DNA of 43,661 nt, taken from positions 1-43,661 of the IMG/VR virus record IMGVR_UViG_3300027852_000072; one strand, written 5' to 3'. Under the pieces are notes generated by a model that was not told where the DNA came from, did no database searches, and worked only from the letters and a program-made list of their open reading frames with translations. The DNA comes from a virus. Both the position numbers and the translations under genes were made by a program. Of the stretch, positions 19,637 to 43,661 are shown piece by piece (within the stretch, counting starts at the first letter, position 1; every line of letters starts with the position of its first letter).

Positions 19637-19667
19637 GATGTATCTCCAAATGTATGTGTGTTTTTAT

Positions 19668-19686
19668 GTTGGTTTATTTAACCAAC
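19668..19686 (-). promoter_or_regulatory. Hairpin at transcription start
   Basis: GTTGGTT (19668-19674) and AACCAAC (19680-19686) flank a 5-base loop just downstream of the -10 at 19693-19698 on the minus strand. It would form at the very 5' end of the mRNA, or act as an operator. Confidence 0.45.
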
Positions 19687-19692
19687 AAGAGC

Positions 19693-19721
19693 ATTATATT
19701 ATGGTAGGTTGGTGATGTATA
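19693..19721 (-). promoter_or_regulatory. Early sigma-70 promoter for 19636 gene
   Basis: TATACA - 17 bp - TATAAT on the minus strand. The spacer begins TCACCAA, as in the other family members. Three copies of a 10-bp A-rich unit lie immediately upstream (19724-19756), like a phased UP element. Confidence 0.75.
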
Positions 19722-19723
19722 CC

Positions 19724-19760
19724 TTTATTTGCATTTATTTGCATTTATTTGCATTTATTT
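19724..19760. repeat. 10-bp tandem repeat (TTTATTTGCA), about 3.5 copies
   Basis: Three exact copies at 19724-19733, 19734-19743 and 19744-19753 plus a partial copy. The helical spacing places A-tracts on one face upstream of the promoter -35, so they may bend DNA or bind the polymerase alpha subunit. Single copies precede the promoters at 20060 and 20311. Confidence 0.85.
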
Positions 19761-19763
19761 TTA

Positions 19764-19792
19764 GCCGAAGGGGATTTCTCCCCCTCGCTTTA
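19764..19792 (-). terminator. Hairpin after 19798 gene
   Basis: GCGAGGGGG and CCCCTTCGGC on the minus strand pair with a small bulge around an AAAT-type loop. It resembles the terminator at 20369-20390 in its core, but the following bases are A-rich rather than T-rich, so termination is uncertain. Confidence 0.4.
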
Positions 19793-19797
19793 AAACA

Positions 19798-20028
19798 TTA
19801 ATCCAGGTTAGTTTGGATAGAAAATCCACCGTCATCACTAAGTAAAGCATCCATCAGATCAAAAGTATCATTGAACTCAAGAACTATTTCTTCTGGTTCA
19901 CCATATTGATTGTCTTCTGTTGCTTCTTCAGATAATCGCTGTAAGAGTTCTGATTTGGTTTTAGCCCTGATATCACAACCTTCAGACGGATGATGCAGGA
20001 ATTGAGCTCTCCAGTAAATTAGTTCCAT
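19798..20028 (-). CDS. Small acidic early protein, unknown
   Basis: This 76-residue acidic protein (MELIYWRAQFLHHPSEGCDIRA start, EEATEDNQYGEPEEI middle) has no family that I recognise. It has its own strong promoter at 20060-20088 and a GGAG ribosome site, so it is expressed early as a single-gene unit. Confidence 0.6.
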   Translation of the reverse strand: MELIYWRAQFLHHPSEGCDIRAKTKSELLQRLSEEATEDNQYGEPEEIVLEFNDTFDLMDALLSDDGGFSIQTNLD

Positions 20029-20059
20029 GATTTATCTCCAGATGTTTGTGTGTAGGACC

Positions 20060-20088
20060 ATTATAATGTTATTGATTGGTGATGTAAA
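20060..20088 (-). promoter_or_regulatory. Early sigma-70 promoter (TTTACA-17-TATAAT)
   Basis: This is a near-perfect promoter for the 20028 gene. About 45 bp including spacer, -10 and the leader GGTCCTACACA are nearly identical to the promoter at 20311-20339. Confidence 0.85.
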
Positions 20089-20091
20089 CAT

Positions 20092-20277
20092 TTATTTGCA
20101 AAGTTTGTTGAGATTGTCCAAATGGCGAAGGGTTTCATTCAAAGTGAATTTAGCATCGATGAACTCTTCTTCTTCTTTTTCTGAAATATCTAAGTCCAAA
20201 GCCAAGACATTAATATCCGATTGACATTCTTTTAAACGAGCGATGACGGATTCTATTAAAGTAATTGGAGTGCTCAT
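20092..20277 (-). CDS. Small helical protein, unknown
   Basis: This 61-residue, mostly helical acidic protein carries LIESVIARLKECQSDINVLALDLDIS, then a Glu run and a second helix. It is short but has its own promoter (20311-20339). No family recognised. Confidence 0.55.
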   Translation of the reverse strand: MSTPITLIESVIARLKECQSDINVLALDLDISEKEEEEFIDAKFTLNETLRHLDNLNKLCK

Positions 20278-20310
20278 GATATTTTTCTCTGTGTTTGTGT
20301 GTGTAGGACC

Positions 20311-20339
20311 ATTATAATGTTATTGATTGGTGATGTAAA
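20311..20339 (-). promoter_or_regulatory. Early sigma-70 promoter (TTTACA-17-TATAAT)
   Basis: Drives the 20277 gene. Same hexamers, spacer and leader as the promoter at 20060. Confidence 0.85.
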
Positions 20340-20361
20340 CATTTATTTGCATTTAATTGAA

Positions 20362-20390
20362 AAAAAATAGCGGAGGATTTCTCCCCCGCA
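20362..20390 (-). terminator. Rho-independent terminator
   Basis: On the minus strand a GC-rich stem (GCGGGGGAG / CCTCCGC) with an AAAT loop is followed by a run of eight T. It ends the transcript of the 20720 gene just before the next promoter. Confidence 0.8.
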
Positions 20391-20399
20391 GAATGATGT

Positions 20400-20720
20400 T
20401 TATTTTTTCCGTCCAGCTTTCCAATCGGCGAAAGGAGCATCAAGTTCTACGAATTCAGTGTCGAGGATATTAAGAAAATCTCCTTCTTCATCTAAATGGA
20501 TAAGCAGTTTTGTTACTAATGCTCCGTAGGTTCCCGCAGCTTCGTGTTTTGACCAACCAGCTCTTTGCAAGTCTGCGACATCACACCAGGTGAAAGTATC
20601 TTCTGCAAGGTTACTTGGAACTGATCCGCCCATATTTGCTAAACATGAATCAACTAAAGTCATAATAGCATTGGTTTCGTTTGCAGTTAAAGAAGCTAAA
20701 GTAGTTGTGAGGTGTCCCAT
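20400..20720 (-). CDS. Small protein, unknown
   Basis: This 106-residue protein has a helical N-terminus (LTANETNAIMTLVDSCLANMGG), then TFTWCDVADLQRAGWSKHEAAGTYGALVTKLLIHLDEEG, a pattern seen in small phage and plasmid proteins with a helix-turn-helix-like order (LQRAGWSKHEAAGTYGALV). DNA or protein binding is possible but unproven. It is a monocistronic unit with a promoter at 20754-20782 and a terminator after it. Confidence 0.6.
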   Translation of the reverse strand: MGHLTTTLASLTANETNAIMTLVDSCLANMGGSVPSNLAEDTFTWCDVADLQRAGWSKHEAAGTYGALVTKLLIHLDEEGDFLNILDTEFVELDAPFADWKAGRKK

Positions 20721-20753
20721 GATATTTTTCTCTATGTTTGTGTGTGTAGGACC

Positions 20754-20782
20754 ATTATAGTGTTATTGATTGGTGATGTATA
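20754..20782 (-). promoter_or_regulatory. Early sigma-70 promoter (TATACA-17-TATAAT)
   Basis: Drives the 20720 gene. Spacer TCACCAATCAATAACAC differs from the 20060 copy by one base. Confidence 0.8.
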
Positions 20783-20805
20783 CTATTATTGGTAATTAAT
20801 TGCAT

Positions 20806-21093: not shown

Positions 21094-21376
21094 CATCTAC
21101 TTTTTATTCCATTTAAGTCTTTCGCTTATTTGCCTTATAACGGTTTGCATCTACTTTTTATTCCATTTAAGTCTTTCGCTTTTTTGCCTTATAACCTAAC
21201 CATCTTCACATCTACTTTTTATTCCATCTAAGTCTTTCGCTTTTCTGCCTTATAACCATTTGCATATACCTTTATTCCATCTAAGTCTTTCGCTTTTCTG
21301 CCTTATAACTATTTGCATATACCCTTTATTCCATCTAAGTCTTTCGCTTTTCTGCCTTATAACGGTTTGCATCTAT
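21094..21376. repeat. Tandem ~54-bp repeats, five copies plus a partial; candidate replication origin
   Basis: Copies start at 21094, 21148, 21209, 21263 and 21316, with a partial one at 21370 (periods 54, 61, 54, 53, 54). The shared core reads ATTCCAT[CT]TAAG then TCTTTCGCTTT and GCCTTATAAC. They fill the gap between a small gene and the SNF2-type helicase, and the last full copy runs into the helicase 3' end. Directly repeated AT-rich units beside replication genes fit iterons or an origin. They are not CRISPR because there are no variable spacers. Confidence 0.8.
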
Positions 21377-33284: not shown

Positions 33285-33322
33285 GATGATAATATCCAGT
33301 GTGTTTGTTTGTGTGTAGGACC

Positions 33323-33351
33323 ATTATAATGTAGTAGGATACTGTTGTAAA
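33323..33351 (-). promoter_or_regulatory. Early sigma-70 promoter (TTTACA-17-TATAAT)
   Basis: Drives the 33284 gene. Hexamers and the leader GGTCCTACACACAAAC match the family near 20 kb although the spacer differs, so the leader is conserved independently of the spacer. Confidence 0.8.
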
Positions 33352-33354
33352 CAT

Positions 33355-33579
33355 TTAATTGTTATTAAGTGTAATTGCATTTAAAAGTTTGCAGTAATCA
33401 CAATTGGCTTCTGAGAAATGCGAGCGGTTTCTTTCTTGTTGATGCTTGAGACACAAATTGAGGTGATATCTCTGTTCGTTGAATTCTATTTCTTCTCTCG
33501 CTTGCTGTTCCTTTTTTAACAGAGATTCAATATCGGTTTTGTGAGTGAAGACAAACTTGAGTCTTTTTAATATGCCCAT
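33355..33579 (-). CDS. Small coiled-coil protein, unknown
   Basis: This 74-residue protein has FTHKTDIESLLKKEQQAREEIEFNEQRYHLN and two Cys near the C-terminus. It ends just before the promoter at 33323-33351. No family recognised. Confidence 0.55.
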   Translation of the reverse strand: MGILKRLKFVFTHKTDIESLLKKEQQAREEIEFNEQRYHLNLCLKHQQERNRSHFSEANCDYCKLLNAITLNNN

Positions 33580-33994: not shown

Positions 33995-34028
33995 GATGGT
34001 AGTACCTGTTTTGTTTATATGTAGGACC

Positions 34029-34057
34029 ATTGTATTACAGTAGATTAGAGATGTAAA
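34029..34057 (-). promoter_or_regulatory. Early sigma-70 promoter (TTTACA-17-TACAAT)
   Basis: Drives the 33994 gene. The sequence after the -10 (GGTCCTACATATAAAC) matches the rest of the family. Confidence 0.75.
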
Positions 34058-34077
34058 CAACTATTATCCATTAAAGT

Positions 34078-34949: not shown

Positions 34950-35366
34950 TTACAATCTTTTTATAGGATTGGCAAAACTAATGCTGAGTTGAGGTGAAGT
35001 AAAACAGTCAATATTTTCGTTGTAATCAAAATCGCCATATTGACTATAGTATTTATTTAGCTTTTTGTTGCATTTGTCTATATGGTCAGATATTCCTAAC
35101 TGAATACCTTCGTCGTAAGCGGATTGAGGTTGATGACGGTGATGATGATGAGATGTTAAAAGAGTGATACCTGCCTGGACCGATTTTGCTTTTCCCATGA
35201 GAGTGATAGCATGTTTATATCCGTCATTTTTACGAATAGCATTTTCAGAAGTTCTCAGACTGATGAAGACTATCGCATTGTGTATTAACCACAGGATACC
35301 AATTGCAGCGAGAGCGAATGCTGCGAACAGTAGGGTTTGGATAATATTTTCTGAATAAAAGTACAT
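34950..35366 (-). CDS. Member 1 of a three-member family, single TM
   Basis: This 138-residue protein has an N-terminal membrane helix (about residues 10-32, LLFAAFALAAIGILWLIHNAIVF). Its soluble part has NDGYKHAITLMGKAKSVQAGITLL, a His-rich run, then a helix and DFDYNENIDCFTS. Two paralogues follow at 35373 and 35866 with the same order. Likely a phage early membrane protein of unknown role. Confidence 0.65.
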   Translation of the reverse strand: MYFYSENIIQTLLFAAFALAAIGILWLIHNAIVFISLRTSENAIRKNDGYKHAITLMGKAKSVQAGITLLTSHHHHRHQPQSAYDEGIQLGISDHIDKCNKKLNKYYSQYGDFDYNENIDCFTSPQLSISFANPIKRL

Positions 35367-35372
35367 GATAAG

Positions 35373-35735
35373 TTACTCCTGAAATACTGTGAAGCCTGGT
35401 ACGAAATTAGTTGAATAGAATAAATCTTTGTCGTAATCATACTCCCACTGTTTGTTGGTACTGTTTTGAAGACATTTGATATGGTGTTGAATGTGATGAG
35501 TGATAGCGGTTTCAGCACCTTCCGAAAAGTCTTTGCTTGGTTTAGGGATGTTGCGGATGGTGTTGACACCTAGACGAGTAGATGAAGAGCTTGCTAAAGT
35601 CTCTTTGGCGAATTGGTACCCTTTTACCCGTCGCTCAGAAATAGCATCCACACTATAATATCTAGTGAACCATATAATTAGTGCGATAAGGATGCAGGCG
35701 ATGGCGAGGAAGATGTAAGGTGTTGTTGGTGACAT
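35373..35735 (-). CDS. Member 2 of a three-member family, single TM
   Basis: This 120-residue protein has a membrane helix at residues about 6-24 (YIFLAIACILIALIIWF) and soluble part KGYQFAKETLASSSSTRLGVNTI, then EGAETAITHHIQHHIKCL and WEYDYDKDLFYSTNF. It matches the two neighbours in order and spacing. Function unknown. Confidence 0.65.
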   Translation of the reverse strand: MSPTTPYIFLAIACILIALIIWFTRYYSVDAISERRVKGYQFAKETLASSSSTRLGVNTIRNIPKPSKDFSEGAETAITHHIQHHIKCLQNSTNKQWEYDYDKDLFYSTNFVPGFTVFQE

Positions 35736-35865
35736 GCTATGTAGTCCTTTTATATATGAGATTAGAAGTATGTGTTTCTAATGTTTACAGTAGTGATATT
35801 AAATCTATTTTAGTGAATAGTACAACTGAGAATAGAAGTGTATATTAGAAATATCTAATATTATG
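35736..35865 (-). promoter_or_regulatory. Gap between paralogues with duplicated promoter-like sequence
   Basis: No gene seen. It shares TATGAGATTAGA (35755-35766) and a TTTTAGTGAATAGTACA stretch with the region before the third paralogue (36158-36169, and TTTTAATGAATAGTACA). The upstream region was duplicated with the gene, so these are probably the promoters of the 35735 and 36135 genes. Confidence 0.5.
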
Positions 35866-36135
35866 TTATAGAGCGAAAACCTCAGTTGTGGTAGTAGAAA
35901 CATATAATCCAGTTTCATATTCATAAGACCAACTATTGATAGTTTCATCAGATGATAAATAGTCAAGTTGGATTTGAATGTGGTCAAGGATAGATTTGTT
36001 AAGACCAATAGTGAAGTGTTTGTTGATATAGGGCATGGATTTGAGAATGTTAATTCCATGTTCAGTTGATCGGGCAGAGTCAAGAGTGTTAAGACCAAAT
36101 TTATAACCGTTTAAAATTTGAATGAGATGTAACAT
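35866..36135 (-). CDS. Member 3 of a three-member family, soluble
   Basis: This 89-residue protein lacks the membrane helix of its two neighbours but has the same soluble part: NGYKFGLNTLDSARSTEHGINILKSM, then GLNKSILDHIQIQLDYL and SWSYEYETGLYVSTT. It is the first gene on the minus side of the AT-rich divergent region. Function unknown. Confidence 0.6.
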   Translation of the reverse strand: MLHLIQILNGYKFGLNTLDSARSTEHGINILKSMPYINKHFTIGLNKSILDHIQIQLDYLSSDETINSWSYEYETGLYVSTTTTEVFAL

Positions 36136-36664
36136 AAGAAGGTGTCCAGTATGTATGTATGAGATTAGATACTAAAGCACTTTTAATGAATAGTACACAC
36201 TTAAATTAATATAATACGGTTATTTAAGCCTAAGTTATTGAAATCCTTAGTGAAAGAAGCCAGATATTTGTGCCTGAGTTAATTAACTGTAGGCCTAGTT
36301 ACTATGTAAGCCATTGATATTATTAACTTTATAAGACACTATACTTCTAATACTATATACTTCTATAAAATAAATAAAAAATAAAGATATAGTATATTAA
36401 CTATATATAATATACTAATATTAGAAATATATAATATGAGAAATAAGAATATATATAATAGTCCGTCGGCAGTTGAGTTAATAGAGTTTCAGCATTTCAT
36501 TGTTCTTATAAATCAACAAGTTAGCATTAACTAAACTCACTGTTAATTGCTCAACTATTTCTGCCATAATTAAATTTGGACTGTTTTAATGCTCTTTAGT
36601 GTCCTTCTTTAATCCTATGCACTATAATCTAACCTCATACTTAAACATACATCGAGGATTAATA
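36136..36664. promoter_or_regulatory. AT-rich divergent intergenic region
   Basis: This is about 530 bp with no coding frame, extremely AT-rich at about 36340-36470. It separates the leftward early genes from the rightward genes. It contains the leftward promoter for 36135, a TTAAGCCTAAGTT motif at 36222-36234, a 9-bp inverted repeat (36391-36399 with 36408-36416), and a rightward TATAAT at 36623-36628 with no good -35. It could also hold a second origin or a binding region. Confidence 0.6.
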
Positions 36665-36841
36665 ATGACCAATGAAGAAGATTTAGAAGCTTTAAGGACT
36701 CGTTTAAAACACGATGAACAGGTATGTGAAGTGATTGATGAGTTAATTAAACTTAGGCATTGGCGGGATGTTGTATTTGACCTTCATCCAGATGTGGACA
36801 TTGATATTAACTATGATATAAATAATGGAGACCAAGAATGA
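36665..36841 (+). CDS. Small acidic protein, unknown
   Basis: This 58-residue protein is read from ATG 36665, chosen because GAGG lies 8-11 bases upstream. It has a helix with EDLEALRTRLKHDEQVCEVIDELIKL and an acidic end (DVDIDINYDINNGDQE). It overlaps the next gene as ATGA. No family recognised. Confidence 0.55.
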   Translation: MTNEEDLEALRTRLKHDEQVCEVIDELIKLRHWRDVVFDLHPDVDIDINYDINNGDQE

Positions 36842-37107
36842 TTAAAACAAATCGCAGGATTAGAGGTACCAGTCGTGGCAGAAGGTATAAAGCATTGGAA
36901 CGAAAAGAAAAGAATACCGCTGCCAATACTGTTCGCAAGTATGTTCTTCGCGAGTTGTGCAGAAATATAACCACAGAGCGAAGTCTGTTGATAATGTACA
37001 GAAGAGCCAAAGCCGGAAAGTTGGATTATGCTGTCGACGAGTTTCTGGAAGAGTTGGGAGATGTTGCCAAGAAGAAGATCCGTGAAAGAGGTTATTGGAA
37101 ATTGTGA
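36838..37107 (+). CDS. Small basic protein, unknown
   Basis: This 89-residue basic protein begins KTNRRIRGTSRGRRYKALERKEKN and ends with FLEELGDVAKKKIRERGYW. The N-terminal Arg/Lys cluster may bind DNA or RNA. It lies next to the dyad repeats and the terminase promoter, so it is a candidate late regulator. Overlapping start with the previous gene. Confidence 0.55.
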   Translation: MIKTNRRIRGTSRGRRYKALERKEKNTAANTVRKYVLRELCRNITTERSLLIMYRRAKAGKLDYAVDEFLEELGDVAKKKIRERGYWKL

Positions 37108-37113
37108 TTATCA

Positions 37114-37164
37114 AAACCTAAGGTGCTTAGAAACCTAAGGTGCTTAGAAACCTAAGGTGCTTAG
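37114..37164. repeat. Three exact copies of a 17-bp dyad repeat
   Basis: The unit AAACCTAAGGTGCTTAG is repeated at 37114, 37131 and 37148 without gaps. It contains CTAAG-GTG-CTTAG, a perfect 5-bp inverted repeat. The array ends 20 bp before the -35 of the terminase promoter. It could be a regulator operator, or the small terminase (pac/cos) binding site, since both lie at this place in other phages. Confidence 0.85.
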
Positions 37165-37183
37165 AAACCATTGGTTTATATAT

Positions 37184-37212
37184 TTTACAATTTGGTACAT
37201 ACAGACTATAGT
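37184..37212 (+). promoter_or_regulatory. Late promoter TTTACA-17-TATAGT
   Basis: TTTACA at 37184-37189, a 17-bp spacer, TATAGT at 37207-37212. It lies just before the terminase genes. The expected start of RNA is about 37218-37220, at the ATG of the small terminase, so the mRNA may have no leader. Confidence 0.75.
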
Positions 37213-37219
37213 GTCTGCT

Positions 37220-37615
37220 ATGGATACCAATTCGGCCGAAGAAAAAATCACCGCTCTATGTGAAGAACTGAAAATCCCAAGTCCTATCGAGTTTTTGACG
37301 AAGATCATGGGAGGCACAGATCCACGTAGAGTTTCTCTCGTATACAGCAAAATCATAGAGTTAGAAAGCAAATATGGATTAGAACCTCCCGACGAATGGG
37401 ATTGGATAGATCTCATTGAGCTAATAAAAATGGAGTATCGCGGCTCAATCGTAGATATGGGCAAAAGTCAGGATGCAGCAAAACAACTATTAGAATATAC
37501 TCATCCTAAAAGAAAAGCCATCGAAATGGTTAGCATTGATAAAACTCCCAAAGATAAAAAATTGACTAGGATGGATATAAAACGGCTTAATAGGGAATTT
37601 GACCTTGAGTATTAG
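37220..37615 (+). CDS. Terminase small subunit
   Basis: This 131-residue helical protein lies directly before the large terminase. It has EEKITALCEELKIPSPIEFLTKIMGG, then EPPDEWDWIDLIELIKME, DAAKQLLEYTHPKRKAIE and a basic C-terminus. A GTG at 37157 would put the start inside the repeats; ATG at 37220 has no Shine-Dalgarno sequence but lies at the predicted RNA start. It should bind the packaging site and recruit the large subunit. Confidence 0.8.
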   Translation: MDTNSAEEKITALCEELKIPSPIEFLTKIMGGTDPRRVSLVYSKIIELESKYGLEPPDEWDWIDLIELIKMEYRGSIVDMGKSQDAAKQLLEYTHPKRKAIEMVSIDKTPKDKKLTRMDIKRLNREFDLEY

Positions 37616-39104
37616 TTTTGATCCAACTGATCTAAAATATCTGCGACATGTTTTAGAGCATGATCATCTGCGGTTTTCTAGGTATTTTTTTAAGCTAAGA
37701 GAAGGGTGCAAATTTATAGTATCCCCTCATCATCATATTATCTCTGAAACTTTAGACCGTGTTATCAAAGGCGAAATCACTCGCTTAATTATCAACGTCC
37801 CACCGGGATACACCAAAACTGAATTAGCTGTTATATCATTTATGGCGAGAGGATTAGCTATTAACCCAATGGCTAAATTCATGCATCTGTCATATTCCAA
37901 TGACCTAGCACTTCTCAATTCTCAGATAACTCGTGACATCATCAGTCTAGAAGAGTACCAAGAACTTTGGCCAATAACCATTCGGCAGGATACCGCAGCG
38001 AAGAAACGGTGGTTTACTGAAGAGGGTGGTGGAGTATATGCTACATCATCTGGTGGACCTGTTACAGGATTTCGTGCGGGTAGAATGGAAGAGGGATTCA
38101 CTGGTGCTTTTATAGTTGATGATCCTATCAAACCTGAAGAAGCTTTGTCAGAAGTAATCCGAAATCGCATCAACAGTAGAATCAGTTCCACGTTCAAATC
38201 TCGATTAGCTTTAGAAAATGTCACCCCTATGATTTTCATTATGCAACGAGTGCATGAAGATGATCCATCGGGATTCTTGCTTAAAGGTGGATCAGGTGAG
38301 AAGTGGTTTCATCTAATGTTACCCACTCCCATCCCCGAAGGTCCTGTTGCATCATGGTACCCTGATGAATACACTCATGGAATTCCGATTGAATACGAAT
38401 TGCCTGCAGGTCCACTGTGGGATAATAAGCATGATGATGACAATTTAGATCTGATGTATGAGGTTGATCCGTATACCTCAATCACACAATATGGTCAACG
38501 TCCTTATAAATTGGGCGGTGGAATGTTTAAAGACAGATGGTGGAAGCATTGGTCAGTGCTCCCTGTCAACATGCCTGTCAAACGGATATACGGAGACACC
38601 GCATCAAAAACTAAAGAGATCAACGATTGGTCCGTATTTCAATGTTGGGGATGGAGTCCAGAACAAGGCATCTTTCTTATTGACCAAATACGAGGCAAAT
38701 GGGAAGCACCAGAACTTAAACAGGCACTTATTGATTTTTGGAACAAACACAGATTCACTAATCATCCCAATATTAGACCTGTGCAAATGGTTAAGGTGGA
38801 AGACAAATCAAGCGGTACAGGTCTCATTCAAGACATTAGGAAAACTACGAATATCCCAATTGAAGGAATACCTCGAAGCCGAGATAAAGTTGAAAGAGCA
38901 TTTTCAACTATCCCTCATATTGCCGCAGGTCATGTGCACTTACCTATAGAAGCAGATTGGTTAAGTGATTATAAAGCAGAGTTCACAAAGTTCTCGCCTC
39001 TTATGACCCATAAACATGATGATCAAATAGACCCAACGATGGATGCTATTGAAGATCTACTAATTTTTGATAACCGCATAATTACTGAAGAATCACTTAC
39101 TTAG
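37605..39104 (+). CDS. Terminase large subunit
   Basis: This 499-residue protein is read from TTG 37605, 8 bases after AGGGA; another TTG at 37599 is too near that site. The ATPase has Walker A NVPPGYTKTE (about residues 64-73) and a VDDPIKP Walker B-like segment. The nuclease has YGDTASKTKEINDWS, KVEDKSSGTGLIQ and a C-terminal HDDQIDPTMDAIEDLL, with the acids D in these motifs. It cuts and packages the DNA. It overlaps the small subunit by 11 bases. Confidence 0.92.
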   Translation: MSISFDPTDLKYLRHVLEHDHLRFSRYFFKLREGCKFIVSPHHHIISETLDRVIKGEITRLIINVPPGYTKTELAVISFMARGLAINPMAKFMHLSYSNDLALLNSQITRDIISLEEYQELWPITIRQDTAAKKRWFTEEGGGVYATSSGGPVTGFRAGRMEEGFTGAFIVDDPIKPEEALSEVIRNRINSRISSTFKSRLALENVTPMIFIMQRVHEDDPSGFLLKGGSGEKWFHLMLPTPIPEGPVASWYPDEYTHGIPIEYELPAGPLWDNKHDDDNLDLMYEVDPYTSITQYGQRPYKLGGGMFKDRWWKHWSVLPVNMPVKRIYGDTASKTKEINDWSVFQCWGWSPEQGIFLIDQIRGKWEAPELKQALIDFWNKHRFTNHPNIRPVQMVKVEDKSSGTGLIQDIRKTTNIPIEGIPRSRDKVERAFSTIPHIAAGHVHLPIEADWLSDYKAEFTKFSPLMTHKHDDQIDPTMDAIEDLLIFDNRIITEESLT

Positions 39105-39126
39105 GCCGAAAACTAAGGAGAATATT

Positions 39127-39654
39127 ATGAGTTCATTACGAGATAATTACGGAAGCATCAGTGGTACTAAAACACCTTTTATAAGACATGCAACAAATGA
39201 TGGTCTTGTAAGCGGCAGTATTGATGCGGCGATTAACGGTTCCGTGACACCTGTCAAATTTTATATACAACCCGCTGTAGATGAAGTTTTTGAGATTTTA
39301 TCTACGGTATTAGTGGTTTCTTCTTTAGCATCAAATCCCGCAATTGGTAAATATGGTAATAATGACTTAGCTTTAACAAATGGTGTCCAGTTTTTTATCG
39401 AGCAGGATGGGGTAGAAACCATATTGGGATCTCCTATTATTGATAATGCGGATTTAGCAGGTATATATGCTGCAAATGGCACATACGGTTTTGCTTCATC
39501 TATTAATCTAAGAACTTACCGGGCGGATTTACCTAATGCTTTTATACTTAGGGGAAAAACTTCTGACAAATATGGGATTATTGTGCAGGATGATTTATCT
39601 ACTTTGAATACTCACAACCTAAACTTAGTAGGTCTAGTTTCCACTCAAGTATAA
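39127..39654 (+). CDS. Tandem paralogue 1, probable structural protein
   Basis: This 175-residue beta-rich protein begins MSSLRDNYGSISGTKTPFIRHATNDG and is a paralogue of the next gene. Both share the start, G-S-V-T-P-V-x-F-Y-[IV]-Q-P, a LTNG[VI]-x-FF-[IV]-E segment, and a KYGI[IL]VQDDL[ST]TL ending with an NLN/S-x-x-G tail. They lie between terminase and portal, so they may be capsid fibres, decoration proteins or host-facing accessory proteins. No family recognised. Confidence 0.65.
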   Translation: MSSLRDNYGSISGTKTPFIRHATNDGLVSGSIDAAINGSVTPVKFYIQPAVDEVFEILSTVLVVSSLASNPAIGKYGNNDLALTNGVQFFIEQDGVETILGSPIIDNADLAGIYAANGTYGFASSINLRTYRADLPNAFILRGKTSDKYGIIVQDDLSTLNTHNLNLVGLVSTQV

Positions 39655-39669
39655 TATAAGGAGATTATC

Positions 39670-40209
39670 ATGAGTTCATTACGAGATAACTACGGAAAGG
39701 TAAGTAACACAAAACGGGTTGTTCTACGACATGCTACTGACGACGGTGATCCTGAAGGCGGAGATAATGCCAACGTCAACGGATCAGTAACTCCTGTTAT
39801 GTTTTATGTTCAACCCATTCTAACAGAAACCTTTGATATACATAATATTGAAATCTCAGTTAGTGATTCAGGAAATACTGGTCTCAACGATTATGGGGGT
39901 GTCTCTGGACCATTAACAAATGGCATTGTATTCTTCGTTGAACTTGAAGGGATCTTTATACCCATAGGTATTCCTATTAAAACAAATCGTGAATTGATCA
40001 ATCTAAGTGAAAGCTCTGAGACTCACGAATTTGCTGGATCAACTTTTGTTAAATCCTACCGCTTTGGTATTGCGAAGTTCGGAGAAGGTATAGGTATTAT
40101 TTTACACGGCAAACATCTTGACAAATTCGGGATACTTGTTCAAGATGATTTGACCACTTTAATCAATCATAATTTATCTATAAATGGTAATGCAATTACC
40201 CAGTTATAA
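39670..40209 (+). CDS. Tandem paralogue 2, probable structural protein
   Basis: This 179-residue protein begins MSSLRDNYGKVSNTKRVVLRHATDDG and matches the previous protein as described there. A similar RBS precedes both (AAGGAG). The divergence between the copies is large in the middle, suggesting separate binding partners. Function unknown. Confidence 0.65.
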   Translation: MSSLRDNYGKVSNTKRVVLRHATDDGDPEGGDNANVNGSVTPVMFYVQPILTETFDIHNIEISVSDSGNTGLNDYGGVSGPLTNGIVFFVELEGIFIPIGIPIKTNRELINLSESSETHEFAGSTFVKSYRFGIAKFGEGIGIILHGKHLDKFGILVQDDLTTLINHNLSINGNAITQL

Positions 40210-40218
40210 GAGGTTAAT

Positions 40219-41610
40219 ATGAGTACCACAGAAAAAGCACAGATTTTAACTGATAAACAAATAGGCATATTCAAAGATGGGTTAGAAAACCTAATTGCTG
40301 AACTTGGTACTGCACAGGATAAACGGTCTTATTCTAAATTCGTCAATAAGAAGAATCTGTCGCATGAGGCAAATAGAGCAGAGTTAGAAGCCCTGTACCG
40401 CACTGATTGGATGGCAGGAAAAATTGTTGACATTATCCCTGATGATATGACTCGTGAGTGGAGAACCTTCAAAGGTGATATTGATCCTGAAACCGTTAAA
40501 GGATTAGAAGAGGAAGAAACCCGTATTGATTTACCGGGCAATTTCATGCAAGCACATATATGGGGTAGGTTGTATGGCACCTCATATATAGTACTATCCG
40601 TCGACGATGGGCAAAATTCAGATAAACCTCTTAGACTTGATGGACTAAAAGAAGGATCTTTGAAGCATATTAAAGCGGTTGACAGATACCGGCTAACTCA
40701 TGCAGGTGGTGCACCAATCGGTGATCCGATGAATCCTCATTTCGGTTTGCCGGAGTATTACCAATTTGTAGGAGCAGGTGCTACTGCTAATACCCGCATT
40801 CATCACAGCAGAGTTATTCGGTTTGAAGGTGTGAAGTTACCCTACGATTCTTTTCGCGAGAATAACTACATTTCAGATTCTGTGCTAAGCAGACTATATG
40901 ATCCCTTGATTAACTTCAGCACTGTTTCTACTGGTGCTGCAAGTATGGTTTTTGAAACCAACGTAGATATTATGAAGGTCAAAGGTTTAATGAATTACCT
41001 GTCAACTTCTGCAGGTGAAGAGTTACTCCGCAAACGATTTACACTCGCAGGCCTGATGAAGAGTTTCAACAATATGATGCTATTGGACTCTGAAGAAACT
41101 TACGAAAACAAGTCTAATACTTTTGCAGGTTTACCTGACCTGTTAGATAGATATGGATTGCATGTTGGTGCAGGTGGAGATGTTCCAGCAACTCGTTTAT
41201 TGGGTTCATCTGCGAGCGGGTTTAATGCCACAGGCGAAGGTGATTTAAAGAACTACTACGATACCATCCGCTCATCACAGAAAAAAAATTACCGTCCTAA
41301 GATTGATTATGTTGATCAGATCATCGCCAAGAGTTTAGGTATATCTCTGGAAGCGGATTTATCTTACGAGTTTAATTCTCTATTCCAGATAACTCCTAAA
41401 GAGCAAGCAGATAAAGAGTTTGTAGATGCACAACGGGATGCTATCTATCTGGATCGCGGTGTCGTCGGCGAAGATGTTGTTGCGAAAGAATTAAAGCAGA
41501 ATGATGTATACACCAACATTCGTGATGAGGATCTTGAAGAACCCGATAACGACGAAGATGATGAAGACAATGAAGACGATGACGATTTTAATCTTGGAAA
41601 TGGGGGATAA
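40219..41610 (+). CDS. Portal protein (DUF1073 family)
   Basis: This 463-residue protein has DUF1073 features: ANRAELEALYRTDWMAGKIVDIIPDDMTREWR, YGTSYIVLSVDDG, then HSRVIRFEGVKLPYDSFREN and SASGFNATGEGDLKNYYDTIRSSQKK. It ends in a strongly acidic tail. It makes the ring through which DNA enters and leaves the head. Databases sometimes label DUF1073 proteins as 'anti-CBASS Acb1', but this sequence fits a portal by position and length. Confidence 0.88.
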   Translation: MSTTEKAQILTDKQIGIFKDGLENLIAELGTAQDKRSYSKFVNKKNLSHEANRAELEALYRTDWMAGKIVDIIPDDMTREWRTFKGDIDPETVKGLEEEETRIDLPGNFMQAHIWGRLYGTSYIVLSVDDGQNSDKPLRLDGLKEGSLKHIKAVDRYRLTHAGGAPIGDPMNPHFGLPEYYQFVGAGATANTRIHHSRVIRFEGVKLPYDSFRENNYISDSVLSRLYDPLINFSTVSTGAASMVFETNVDIMKVKGLMNYLSTSAGEELLRKRFTLAGLMKSFNNMMLLDSEETYENKSNTFAGLPDLLDRYGLHVGAGGDVPATRLLGSSASGFNATGEGDLKNYYDTIRSSQKKNYRPKIDYVDQIIAKSLGISLEADLSYEFNSLFQITPKEQADKEFVDAQRDAIYLDRGVVGEDVVAKELKQNDVYTNIRDEDLEEPDNDEDDEDNEDDDDFNLGNGG

Positions 41611-41615
41611 AGATA

Positions 41616-42458
41616 ATGCCTGCTATTTCGCCTATTCCAACTAAAGAAGCAGCGAAGATAAATAAAAGGTTGAGAAAGAAAAAGCAGAAGCGGGTGCTAC
41701 CAGTTAAGTCTCCGCGAAATGTTGAGGTTAAATACCGCAAAAACCTTTTGAGACTTGTTAACAGTTTAAAAAGAGATGTGCGAAAAAATATATACCCTCT
41801 TTTGCGAATGTTGCAACCACAGTTTACCGGTGATGCTTATGCGGAACAGTTAGCAACTGCTTTTGATAGACTTCGTCTGAACTATTCAGCTGTCAATGTA
41901 GAAGCACAAACCCTTGCTAAGAGTTTTGTTGAAGGTACCAATACAGTAAACAAACGGCAATTTTATTCAGCGGTAGAAAAAGCTGTTGGTATAAATGTGC
42001 AAAGCATTATACAGAGCGAAGGATTAGAAGATGCATTGGTAGCTACTACCCGTGAAAACGTCGGATTGATTAAATCTATTCCTGAAGAGTATTTTAAAAA
42101 GCTAGAAACTATTGTTTATAATGGTACTACCCAGAAATCTTCAGCTAGTTCTATGATTTCTCAGATTCAAGAATTGAACGGAAGTACTACTAAAAGAGCG
42201 AAAGTTATCGCGAGAGATCAAACTTCCAAGCTTAATTCAGCACTTAATCAGCAGCGACAGCGGAATCTGGGAGTTGAGGAATATATTTGGAGGACTGCAG
42301 GGGATAGTAAAGTAAGGGAATCTCATAGAACTAAGAACGGAAAAATATTCAGATGGGATAATCCACCAAAAGATACCGGACATCCTGGCAATGACATCCA
42401 ATGCCGTTGTGTTCCTCAAGCAATCATAACTTCTGACAAAAAAAGTGGTAGTATTTAA
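41616..42458 (+). CDS. Minor head protein (Mu F / SPP1 gp7-like)
   Basis: This 280-residue protein has a basic N-terminus (NKRLRKKKQKRVLPVK). Its C-terminal module is VIARDQTSKLNSALNQQRQRNLGVEEYIWRTAGDSKVRESHRTKNGKIFRWDNPP-like, with HPGNDIQCRCVP at the end. This is the Phage_Mu_F signature with its conserved RxxH and C-x-C. It usually enters the procapsid with the portal and affects early infection. Confidence 0.88.
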   Translation: MPAISPIPTKEAAKINKRLRKKKQKRVLPVKSPRNVEVKYRKNLLRLVNSLKRDVRKNIYPLLRMLQPQFTGDAYAEQLATAFDRLRLNYSAVNVEAQTLAKSFVEGTNTVNKRQFYSAVEKAVGINVQSIIQSEGLEDALVATTRENVGLIKSIPEEYFKKLETIVYNGTTQKSSASSMISQIQELNGSTTKRAKVIARDQTSKLNSALNQQRQRNLGVEEYIWRTAGDSKVRESHRTKNGKIFRWDNPPKDTGHPGNDIQCRCVPQAIITSDKKSGSI

Positions 42459-42528
42459 TAAAAAATAGTGTACATGTTGGTATTAACAATCTACTATCAA
42501 GACTGTTTTGATCCAATTTAATAATCAA

Positions 42529-42540
42529 TTATGTACATAA
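42529..42540. promoter_or_regulatory. 12-bp palindrome TTATGTACATAA over the protease start codon
   Basis: The palindrome contains the ATG of the 42531 gene and has no Shine-Dalgarno sequence before it. It may be chance or an operator; GTGTACATGT, a related half-palindrome, lies about 60 bp upstream. Confidence 0.35.
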
Positions 42541-43661
42541 CAGATCGGATAAATATTGCCAATAGCCAACGTCAGTATACCGACGAGGGTTTTTTAGTAC
42601 TCCCCGCACGAATCGCACGAACTGGTATCCAAGACTATTTAGCATTTGAACTTGGACTAACTGACCGCGAACCAACCGACGTCATCCGCATATATCGTCC
42701 ACCAGAAGAAGTGTTTTCTGCTGACTCCCTAGCCTCCTTCGCCAATAAGCCTGTTACTGATAACCATCCTGAAGTTTTGGTGAATTCTGAGAATGCCAAA
42801 GAGGTAACTGTTGGCATGTCTGGGAATGAAGTTGTCAAAGATGGCATATATGCTTCTACCATGTTGCAAATAATGGACAAGAGTGCCATTAAAAAGGTCG
42901 AAGACGGACAGGTTGAATTATCAAATGGTTATGTCTCCGACTTAGTATGGGGCGAAGGAATTACTCCGGATGGTGAAAAGTACGATGCCATTCAGAGGAA
43001 TATAAAAGGTAATCATATTGCCTTGGTTAAAGAAGGTCGTTGTGGCCAACAGTGTAAAGTGTCTGATAATTCGTTTAACAACCCACAGGAGCCAATCATG
43101 GCTACAATTACTATCGACGGTGTGGATTTTGAGGTAACAGATCAAGCTTCACAAGCCGTTAAAAAACTTCAGCAGTCTTTAAAAGACTCTGAAGAAAAAG
43201 TGAAAGACATGGAAGAAGAAGACGAGGAGGAGGAGAAAAAGAAAGAAGATGAACTTGAAGGGGTTAAAAAGGACCATAAAACCGCCCTTGATAATCTTCA
43301 AGCGAAATTCGACGATGCCAAAGCGAAAATCCCAACCCCTGAAGGTTTGGATAAGCTCGTTGAAAACCGTATTGCTACTCGCGATGCTGTTCTTCGTATC
43401 TGCCCCGATACCAAGTGGGAAGGTAAAGACTGCGAAGCCCTCCGCAAAGAAGTTGTTGCAGACAAATGTCCTGAAGTTGATTTGGAATCTGTCTCGCCAG
43501 AATACATCCGAGCTCGTTTTGATGCATTGGCGGAAACAGACGGTTCCCAGTCTACTATGGATGTGAACTTATCTGCATCTGTTACACAAAAACCCCCTGT
43601 TAAAACAACCCAAACCCCTTCAACCGATGCTCGTGCAAAAATGGCTGAAGATTCTCGTAAT
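42531..43661 (+). CDS. Capsid maturation protease/scaffold (DUF2213), interrupted by contig end
   Basis: This 385-residue protein continues at bases 12-164 after circularisation. Residues 1-185 are a DUF2213 domain (YTDEGFLVLPARIARTGIQDYLAFELG, ADSLASFANKPVTDNHPEVLV, then YDAIQRNIKGNHIALVKEGRCG), which acts as a prohead protease with S/H-type residues. The C-terminal part is a Glu/Lys-rich coiled coil (about 200-260) typical of scaffold. An in-frame ATG at 43098 has a strong ribosome site and may give the scaffold alone. It lies between minor head protein and cement protein. Confidence 0.85.
   Translation, partial: MYITDRINIANSQRQYTDEGFLVLPARIARTGIQDYLAFELGLTDREPTDVIRIYRPPEEVFSADSLASFANKPVTDNHPEVLVNSENAKEVTVGMSGNEVVKDGIYASTMLQIMDKSAIKKVEDGQVELSNGYVSDLVWGEGITPDGEKYDAIQRNIKGNHIALVKEGRCGQQCKVSDNSFNNPQEPIMATITIDGVDFEVTDQASQAVKKLQQSLKDSEEKVKDMEEEDEEEEKKKEDELEGVKKDHKTALDNLQAKFDDAKAKIPTPEGLDKLVENRIATRDAVLRICPDTKWEGKDCEALRKEVVADKCPEVDLESVSPEYIRARFDALAETDGSQSTMDVNLSASVTQKPPVKTTQTPSTDARAKMAEDSRN
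43098..43661 (+). CDS. Nested scaffold protein from internal start
   Basis: AGGAG (43087-43091) lies 6 bases before ATG 43098, in frame with the protease gene, while the upstream ATG at 42531 has no such site. The internal product would begin MATITIDGVDFEVTDQ and consist of the scaffold coiled coil and the C-terminal tail to position 164 of the circle (about 196 residues). This mirrors lambda C/Nu3, where protease and scaffold share a 3' end. The protein is inferred, not proven. Confidence 0.6.
   Translation, partial: MATITIDGVDFEVTDQASQAVKKLQQSLKDSEEKVKDMEEEDEEEEKKKEDELEGVKKDHKTALDNLQAKFDDAKAKIPTPEGLDKLVENRIATRDAVLRICPDTKWEGKDCEALRKEVVADKCPEVDLESVSPEYIRARFDALAETDGSQSTMDVNLSASVTQKPPVKTTQTPSTDARAKMAEDSRN
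43536..43661. repeat. Direct overlap with contig start (circular assembly)
   Basis: Exact copy of bases 12-137, as described for that entry. One copy should be removed when the genome is circularised. Confidence 0.9.

Follow-up and report, generated by a model that had tools for sequence, protein, structure and literature searches.

A small terminase gene whose promoter lies within a predicted start-codon hairpin

What controls the small terminase gene (terS) of a phage in which a repeat array, a promoter and the start codon follow directly on one another? The window, by which we mean the whole 43,661-nucleotide stretch of DNA that was analyzed, is virus record IMGVR_UViG_3300027852_000072. 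Its ends overlap by 126 bp (12-137 = 43536-43661) and the genome as assembled is therefore circular, with about 43.5 kb. The record is classed as linear despite these overlapping ends, and its first 11 bases fall outside the match. A second contig, IMGVR_UViG_3300002180_000086, is identical to the window from 36395 to its end and crosses the end junction; this contig starts within AT-rich tandem repeats (36387-36460) that occupy a divergent intergenic region. Elsewhere in the genome, five imperfect copies of a 54-bp repeat occupy an AT-rich stretch beside a helicase gene (21094-21375) and possibly mark a replication origin, and the genes at 39127-39654 and 39670-40209, likely paralogues, are 74% identical over ∼91 nt around their starts.

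Judged by its matches to phrog_38 (E = 7e-99) and to Pfam Terminase_6C, the identity of the large terminase gene terL (37599-39104, plus strand) can be regarded as certain; genes for the portal, head morphogenesis and capsid proteins lie downstream. The 131-residue reading frame at 37220-37615 on the same strand lies upstream of terL and overlaps it, and a family of homologues occupies the same place in other phages, which together indicate that this frame encodes the small terminase. Profile matches to PHROG 641 ('terminase small subunit') are weak or marginal and involve 9 of the 45 family members. The predicted structure of TerS is all-helical (mean pLDDT 79, pTM 0.46), and a structure search returned no solved relative and one strong match, W8VUR2, a nameless viral protein of 130 residues with 39% identity that we take to be the probable KPP23 homologue. 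Structural genes follow terS, and because the DNA-metabolism genes are on the opposite strand, terS heads the structural operon. Two small plus-strand genes precede it: one encoding 58 residues (36665-36841) with no family match in profile searches, and one encoding a basic protein of 89 residues (36838-37107), whose stop codon is 6 bp 5′ of the repeat array.

The -35 hexamer of the terS promoter, TTTACA (37184-37189, plus strand), is followed after 17 bp by a -10 hexamer, TATAGT (37207-37212, plus strand). This promoter, which the first-pass annotation had described, is indeed present and matches the consensus at 10 of 12 positions, placing it among the best matches in 35000-43661, although such matches are no commoner in this region than in shuffled DNA and promoter scores of at least 9 occur at about 3 per 10,000 plus-strand positions. 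The TTTACA hexamer and the spacing are common to terS in most relatives and to the phage's own minus-strand promoters, and both terS hexamers resemble the repeated minus-strand arrangement TTTACA-17-TATAAT. The minus-strand promoters form a family of their own (TTTACA-17-TATAATGGTCCTACACACA) that also shares a conserved box further downstream and precedes several small genes (19657-20802, 33287-33371 and 34010-34074). As had also been claimed, the terS ATG at 37220 lies 7 nt beyond the -10 hexamer and has no Shine-Dalgarno-like stretch before it; most genes of the phage have one. The geometry of the promoter predicts an RNA 5′ end at 37219-37220 (plus strand), with a 7-nt discriminator and the A of the ATG as +1. 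That this promoter is regulated and late is plausible, late use because structural genes follow it and the DNA-metabolism genes are on the opposite strand.

Comparison with relatives supports the reading of the terS-terL mRNA as leaderless. The three closest terS lineages, with 64-68% protein identity, carry TATAAT 5-7 nt before the ATG, and together with the window they make up a clade of four lineages with the leaderless layout (window, L006/L090, L089 and L091). The gap between -10 and ATG is 7, 7, 7 and 5 nt in the window, L089, L006/L090 and L091, respectively, and the bases within it differ among these relatives; the spacing is kept and the sequence is not. No consistent Shine-Dalgarno sequence precedes terS across the four lineages. 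Leaderless genes in Deinococcus-Thermus likewise have a -10 hexamer 6-7 bp from the reading frame and no Shine-Dalgarno sequence (PMC12340547). The same two features recur in this clade, with L091 at 5 nt, but terS is a single gene among genes led by Shine-Dalgarno sequences, and it has a good -35 hexamer and a start-codon hairpin.

This hairpin, which encloses the -10 hexamer and the ATG, was overlooked in the first-pass annotation and has the strongest support of all parts of the element. In RNA that reads through from upstream, positions 37192-37230 (plus strand) are predicted to fold as UUGGUACAUACAGAC, the loop UAUAGU and GUCUG-c-UAUG-ga-UACCAA, with 15 pairs and bulges. Positions 37192-37206 would pair with 37213-37230, placing the ATG in the 3′ arm and leaving the -10 hexamer alone as the exact loop. 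A scan for inverted repeats that allowed no bulges missed this structure. The 41-nt fold has an energy of -14.6 kcal/mol (z = -3.9), equalled by 1 of 200 shuffles and by 69 of 21,810 overlapping 41-nt windows of the genome; its stability alone is not rare, but its placement is. With energies computed for RNA in isolation from ribosomes and proteins, the predicted pairing probability of the ATG in read-through RNA is 0.95-0.99, and the predicted cost of opening the start is 13.2 kcal/mol in this RNA versus 1.0 kcal/mol in RNA starting with the ATG. With shuffled upstream sequence, the opening cost was 5.6 ± 2.3 kcal/mol, and none of 40 trials reached 13.2. The terS cost is the highest among 57 genes of the genome (median 4.0).

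We consider it somewhat probable that the element ties translation of terS to its own promoter, the leaderless RNA being open and read-through RNA being locked by the hairpin. Polymerase bound at TTTACA-17-TATAGT would start at or beside the A of the ATG and produce a leaderless terS-terL mRNA with an open start. RNA from the upstream genes (36665-37107), in contrast, would contain both arms of the hairpin, burying the ATG, and no Shine-Dalgarno sequence, so that terS would be silent in this RNA. A putative source of read-through RNA is a candidate promoter, GTGTCC-18-TATAAT (36599-36628, plus strand), recognized by its consensus match, and terminator scans found none between the gene for the 89-residue protein and terS. 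On this pattern, terS is probably read-through-proof and translated only from the RNA of its own promoter.

The nearest relatives appear to reach a similar outcome by other means. At the place of the array, L006, L089 and L091 carry an intrinsic terminator, a GC-rich stem that leads into a U run and begins 76-85 nt 5′ of the ATG; scans of the window for such a structure found none at that place. Two of these three lineages, L089 and L091, have the terminator only and no start-codon hairpin, and L006 has a terminator together with a marginal hairpin (p about 0.03-0.05), so a strong start-codon hairpin occurs in only one of the four clade lineages, the window. The clade's terS genes thus seem to be insulated from upstream transcription by a terminator (L089, L091), a hairpin (window) or both (L006), although four lineages amount to a pattern and not a proof. 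Across the wider family, terminator and hairpin do not replace each other: there is no overall difference and the two are not mutually exclusive.

We asked what the wider family shows with a set of 46 non-redundant terS leaders. Most of them have TTTACA 17 or 18 bp before a near-TATAAT -10 hexamer upstream of terS, in two layouts: 5-7 nt separate the -10 hexamer from the ATG in the window's clade, and mostly 31-36 nt do so in the wider family. In the latter, an inverted repeat extends from the promoter to the start codon, and the sequences of its arms differ between phages. The repeat reaches the ATG in L031/L110 (18 perfect pairs) and in L117 (16), and stops just short of the start codon GTG in L062 (13); many other leaders have shorter repeats. 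When the 5′ region of each phage was paired with the 3′ region of every other phage, own pairs averaged -13.6 kcal/mol versus -9.2 kcal/mol for cross pairs (z = -9.9; 0 of 20,000 permutations across the 46 leaders), whereas |z| did not exceed 3.3 at any of 19 control offsets on these sequences. Representatives chosen by TerS identity gave z = -6.4 below 60% and z = -3.3 below 50%. Restricted to the leaderless clade and its near neighbours, at the coordinates of the wider family, the same test gave z = -0.3; this clade has its arms at a shorter distance from each other and therefore adds nothing to the family statistic. In 24 of 29 leaders (p = 7e-5), shuffling the 5′ part of the long RNA made it easier to open. 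The predicted RNA start falls between the arms in most leaders, and RNA from the own promoter would therefore lack the 5′ arm. Just after this predicted start, a GCCGG(A) box is conserved in L028, L031, L050, L053, L065, L066, L076 and L106.

It could be argued that these inverted repeats act as DNA, as an operator or a cohesive-end site, and not as RNA hairpins, since they straddle the promoter and the gene start and are symmetric in DNA too, and since the strand asymmetry is weak. Wobble pairs number 12 G-U versus 8 A-C, which is not decisive for RNA action, and, relative to the cross-genome baseline, the sense strand has an advantage of about 1.2 kcal/mol, or about 2 standard errors; the asymmetry therefore favours RNA action weakly. 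However, the arms change while their complementarity stays, which is hard to reconcile with a single protein family recognizing one fixed sequence, and the 3′ arm lies mostly on the ribosome-binding region or the start codon. We regard action as DNA as unlikely. We give even chances to the broader proposal that the terS family ties expression to its own promoter by placing this promoter in the upstream half of a start-codon hairpin with arms that change together, that one clade is leaderless, its -10 hexamer forming the loop and its RNA beginning with the A of the ATG, and that an upstream terminator is an alternative form of insulation.

What, then, is the role of the array? It spans 37114-37169 and consists of three perfect 17-bp direct repeats of AAACCTAAGGTGCTTAG (37114-37130, 37131-37147 and 37148-37164), followed by AAACC up to 37169. 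Each unit contains the dyad CTAAG-GTG-CTTAG, and the units are free of mismatches over 37114-37164, as the first-pass annotation had reported; 19 bp, and not the 20 bp given there, separate the last unit from the -35 hexamer. Allowing up to three mismatches, we found no further copies of AAACCTAAGGTGCTTAG in the window, and shuffled controls gave a mean of 0.12 matches and never three. Neither array nor unit is present at terS or elsewhere in the relatives with 64-68% identical TerS, and a search of viral contigs for the array or dyad with this core recovered one identical contig only. Judged by these relatives, the array is therefore not a general feature of these terS promoters, and the comparison with them does not support the proposed link to regulation or packaging. 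The earlier interpretation as a whole is partly supported. Look-alikes in L121 and in the Bacteroidales genome L149 have unrelated settings and were judged to be chance matches; the one in L149 (1201-1320) is a 22-bp tandem repeat containing the 13-mer CTAAGGTGCTTAG as in the array. Repeats of 30 bp and 39 bp in G001 and G003 were considered as counterparts and set aside, as they are not near terS. The 89-residue basic protein was likewise considered as a binder of the array, a reading that its distribution does not support, its sole relative being a weak homologue in L091/L092, both of which lack the array.

The array is most likely a lineage-specific addition that serves as a protein-binding site, and a regulator of the terS promoter is more likely to bind it than the packaging machinery or terminase. 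That it is a set of operators for a phage or host transcription regulator falls a little short of an even chance in our estimate. Activators of class I usually bind at about the distance upstream of the RNA start found here, where dyad-bearing tandem sites lie directly 5′ of the promoter and the nearest dyad center (37158) is ∼62 bp 5′ of the predicted start. The 17-bp spacing, however, puts the sites off a common helix face, no copy of the unit accompanies other promoters of the phage, relatives use the same promoter without the array, and no candidate regulator was identified; the spacing and the absence elsewhere do not point to any known class of regulator.

A packaging site, at which TerS would bind the repeats and the terminase would cut nearby, has a precedent in the pac site of SPP1, whose direct repeats extend across the promoters and the start of the small terminase gene (PMC4737164). 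The array is unique in its genome and directly 5′ of terS, and the repeats near SPP1 terS, boxA among them, are not all kept in the relative SF6 (PMC4737164). The loci are thus alike in having direct repeats at the terS promoter or start that are partly lineage-specific, but the sequence and number of the repeats differ. Against packaging, phages with 64-68% identical TerS carry neither array nor unit, and the DNA-binding domain of SF6 TerS shows no clear preference for such repeats (PMC4737164). Because the SPP1 repeats are themselves partly missing in SF6, absence in relatives leaves room for a packaging role, which we nevertheless think doubtful. We consider it improbable that the array acts at the RNA level and stands in for the terminator of the relatives, either as an insulator formed by RNA structure or as a weak terminator. 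It does occupy the site of that terminator in L006, L089 and L091, and with its flanks (37095-37195) it folds to -27.4 kcal/mol (z = -3.6), better than 99% of shuffled-flank versions, but the coordinates with the best z were picked after the fold was known; moreover, no GC-rich stem directly precedes a U run, and terminator scans were negative at the array. The small share of probability left by these three readings goes to an array that is neutral.

The proposed locking of a start codon in read-through RNA has counterparts elsewhere. In T4 gene e, and also in soc, 49 and I-TevI, a long RNA initiated upstream buries the start in a helix (PMC3014915). The proximal promoter of gene e is located within the sequence that specifies the 5′ strand of this helix, and its RNA lacks that strand, so that the longer early RNA hides the start and the late-promoter RNA does not (PMC3014915). 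The layout of terS is the same: by prediction, the start is paired in the long RNA (0.95-0.99), and the own-promoter RNA, with the -10 hexamer as the loop, lacks the 5′ arm and opens for 1.0 kcal/mol. Upstream RNA could enter terS, given the same-strand genes, the candidate promoter at 36599-36628 and the scans that found no terminator. The T4 genes, however, rely on gp55-dependent late promoters, have ribosome binding sites in their leaders and encode lysozyme, Soc, 49 and a homing endonuclease, whereas terS is a terminase gene with a sigma-70-type promoter and, in this clade, a leaderless start. By analogy, terS would work like the T4 set but is not a member of it, its promoter not being of the gp55 type. 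A large hairpin has also been proposed to block translation of read-through RNA of Bacillus subtilis sigG, and transcripts started at the sigG promoter itself are unable to form it (PMC5942855). Unlike terS, sigG is a cellular sigma-factor gene that has a leader and a ribosome-binding site (PMC5942855). Among the titles and abstracts that a literature search retrieved, we found none on leaderless or hairpin-locked terminase genes.

If the proposed mechanism is correct, no terminase would be made unless the gene's own promoter were active, regardless of transcripts entering from upstream, and a simple RNA rule would time packaging in many uncultured phages. The mechanism of T4 lysozyme, known for a handful of genes, would then extend to the packaging genes of a broad phage family and gain a leaderless form, and a promoter inside a start-codon hairpin would provide a sequence signature with which to screen other genes.
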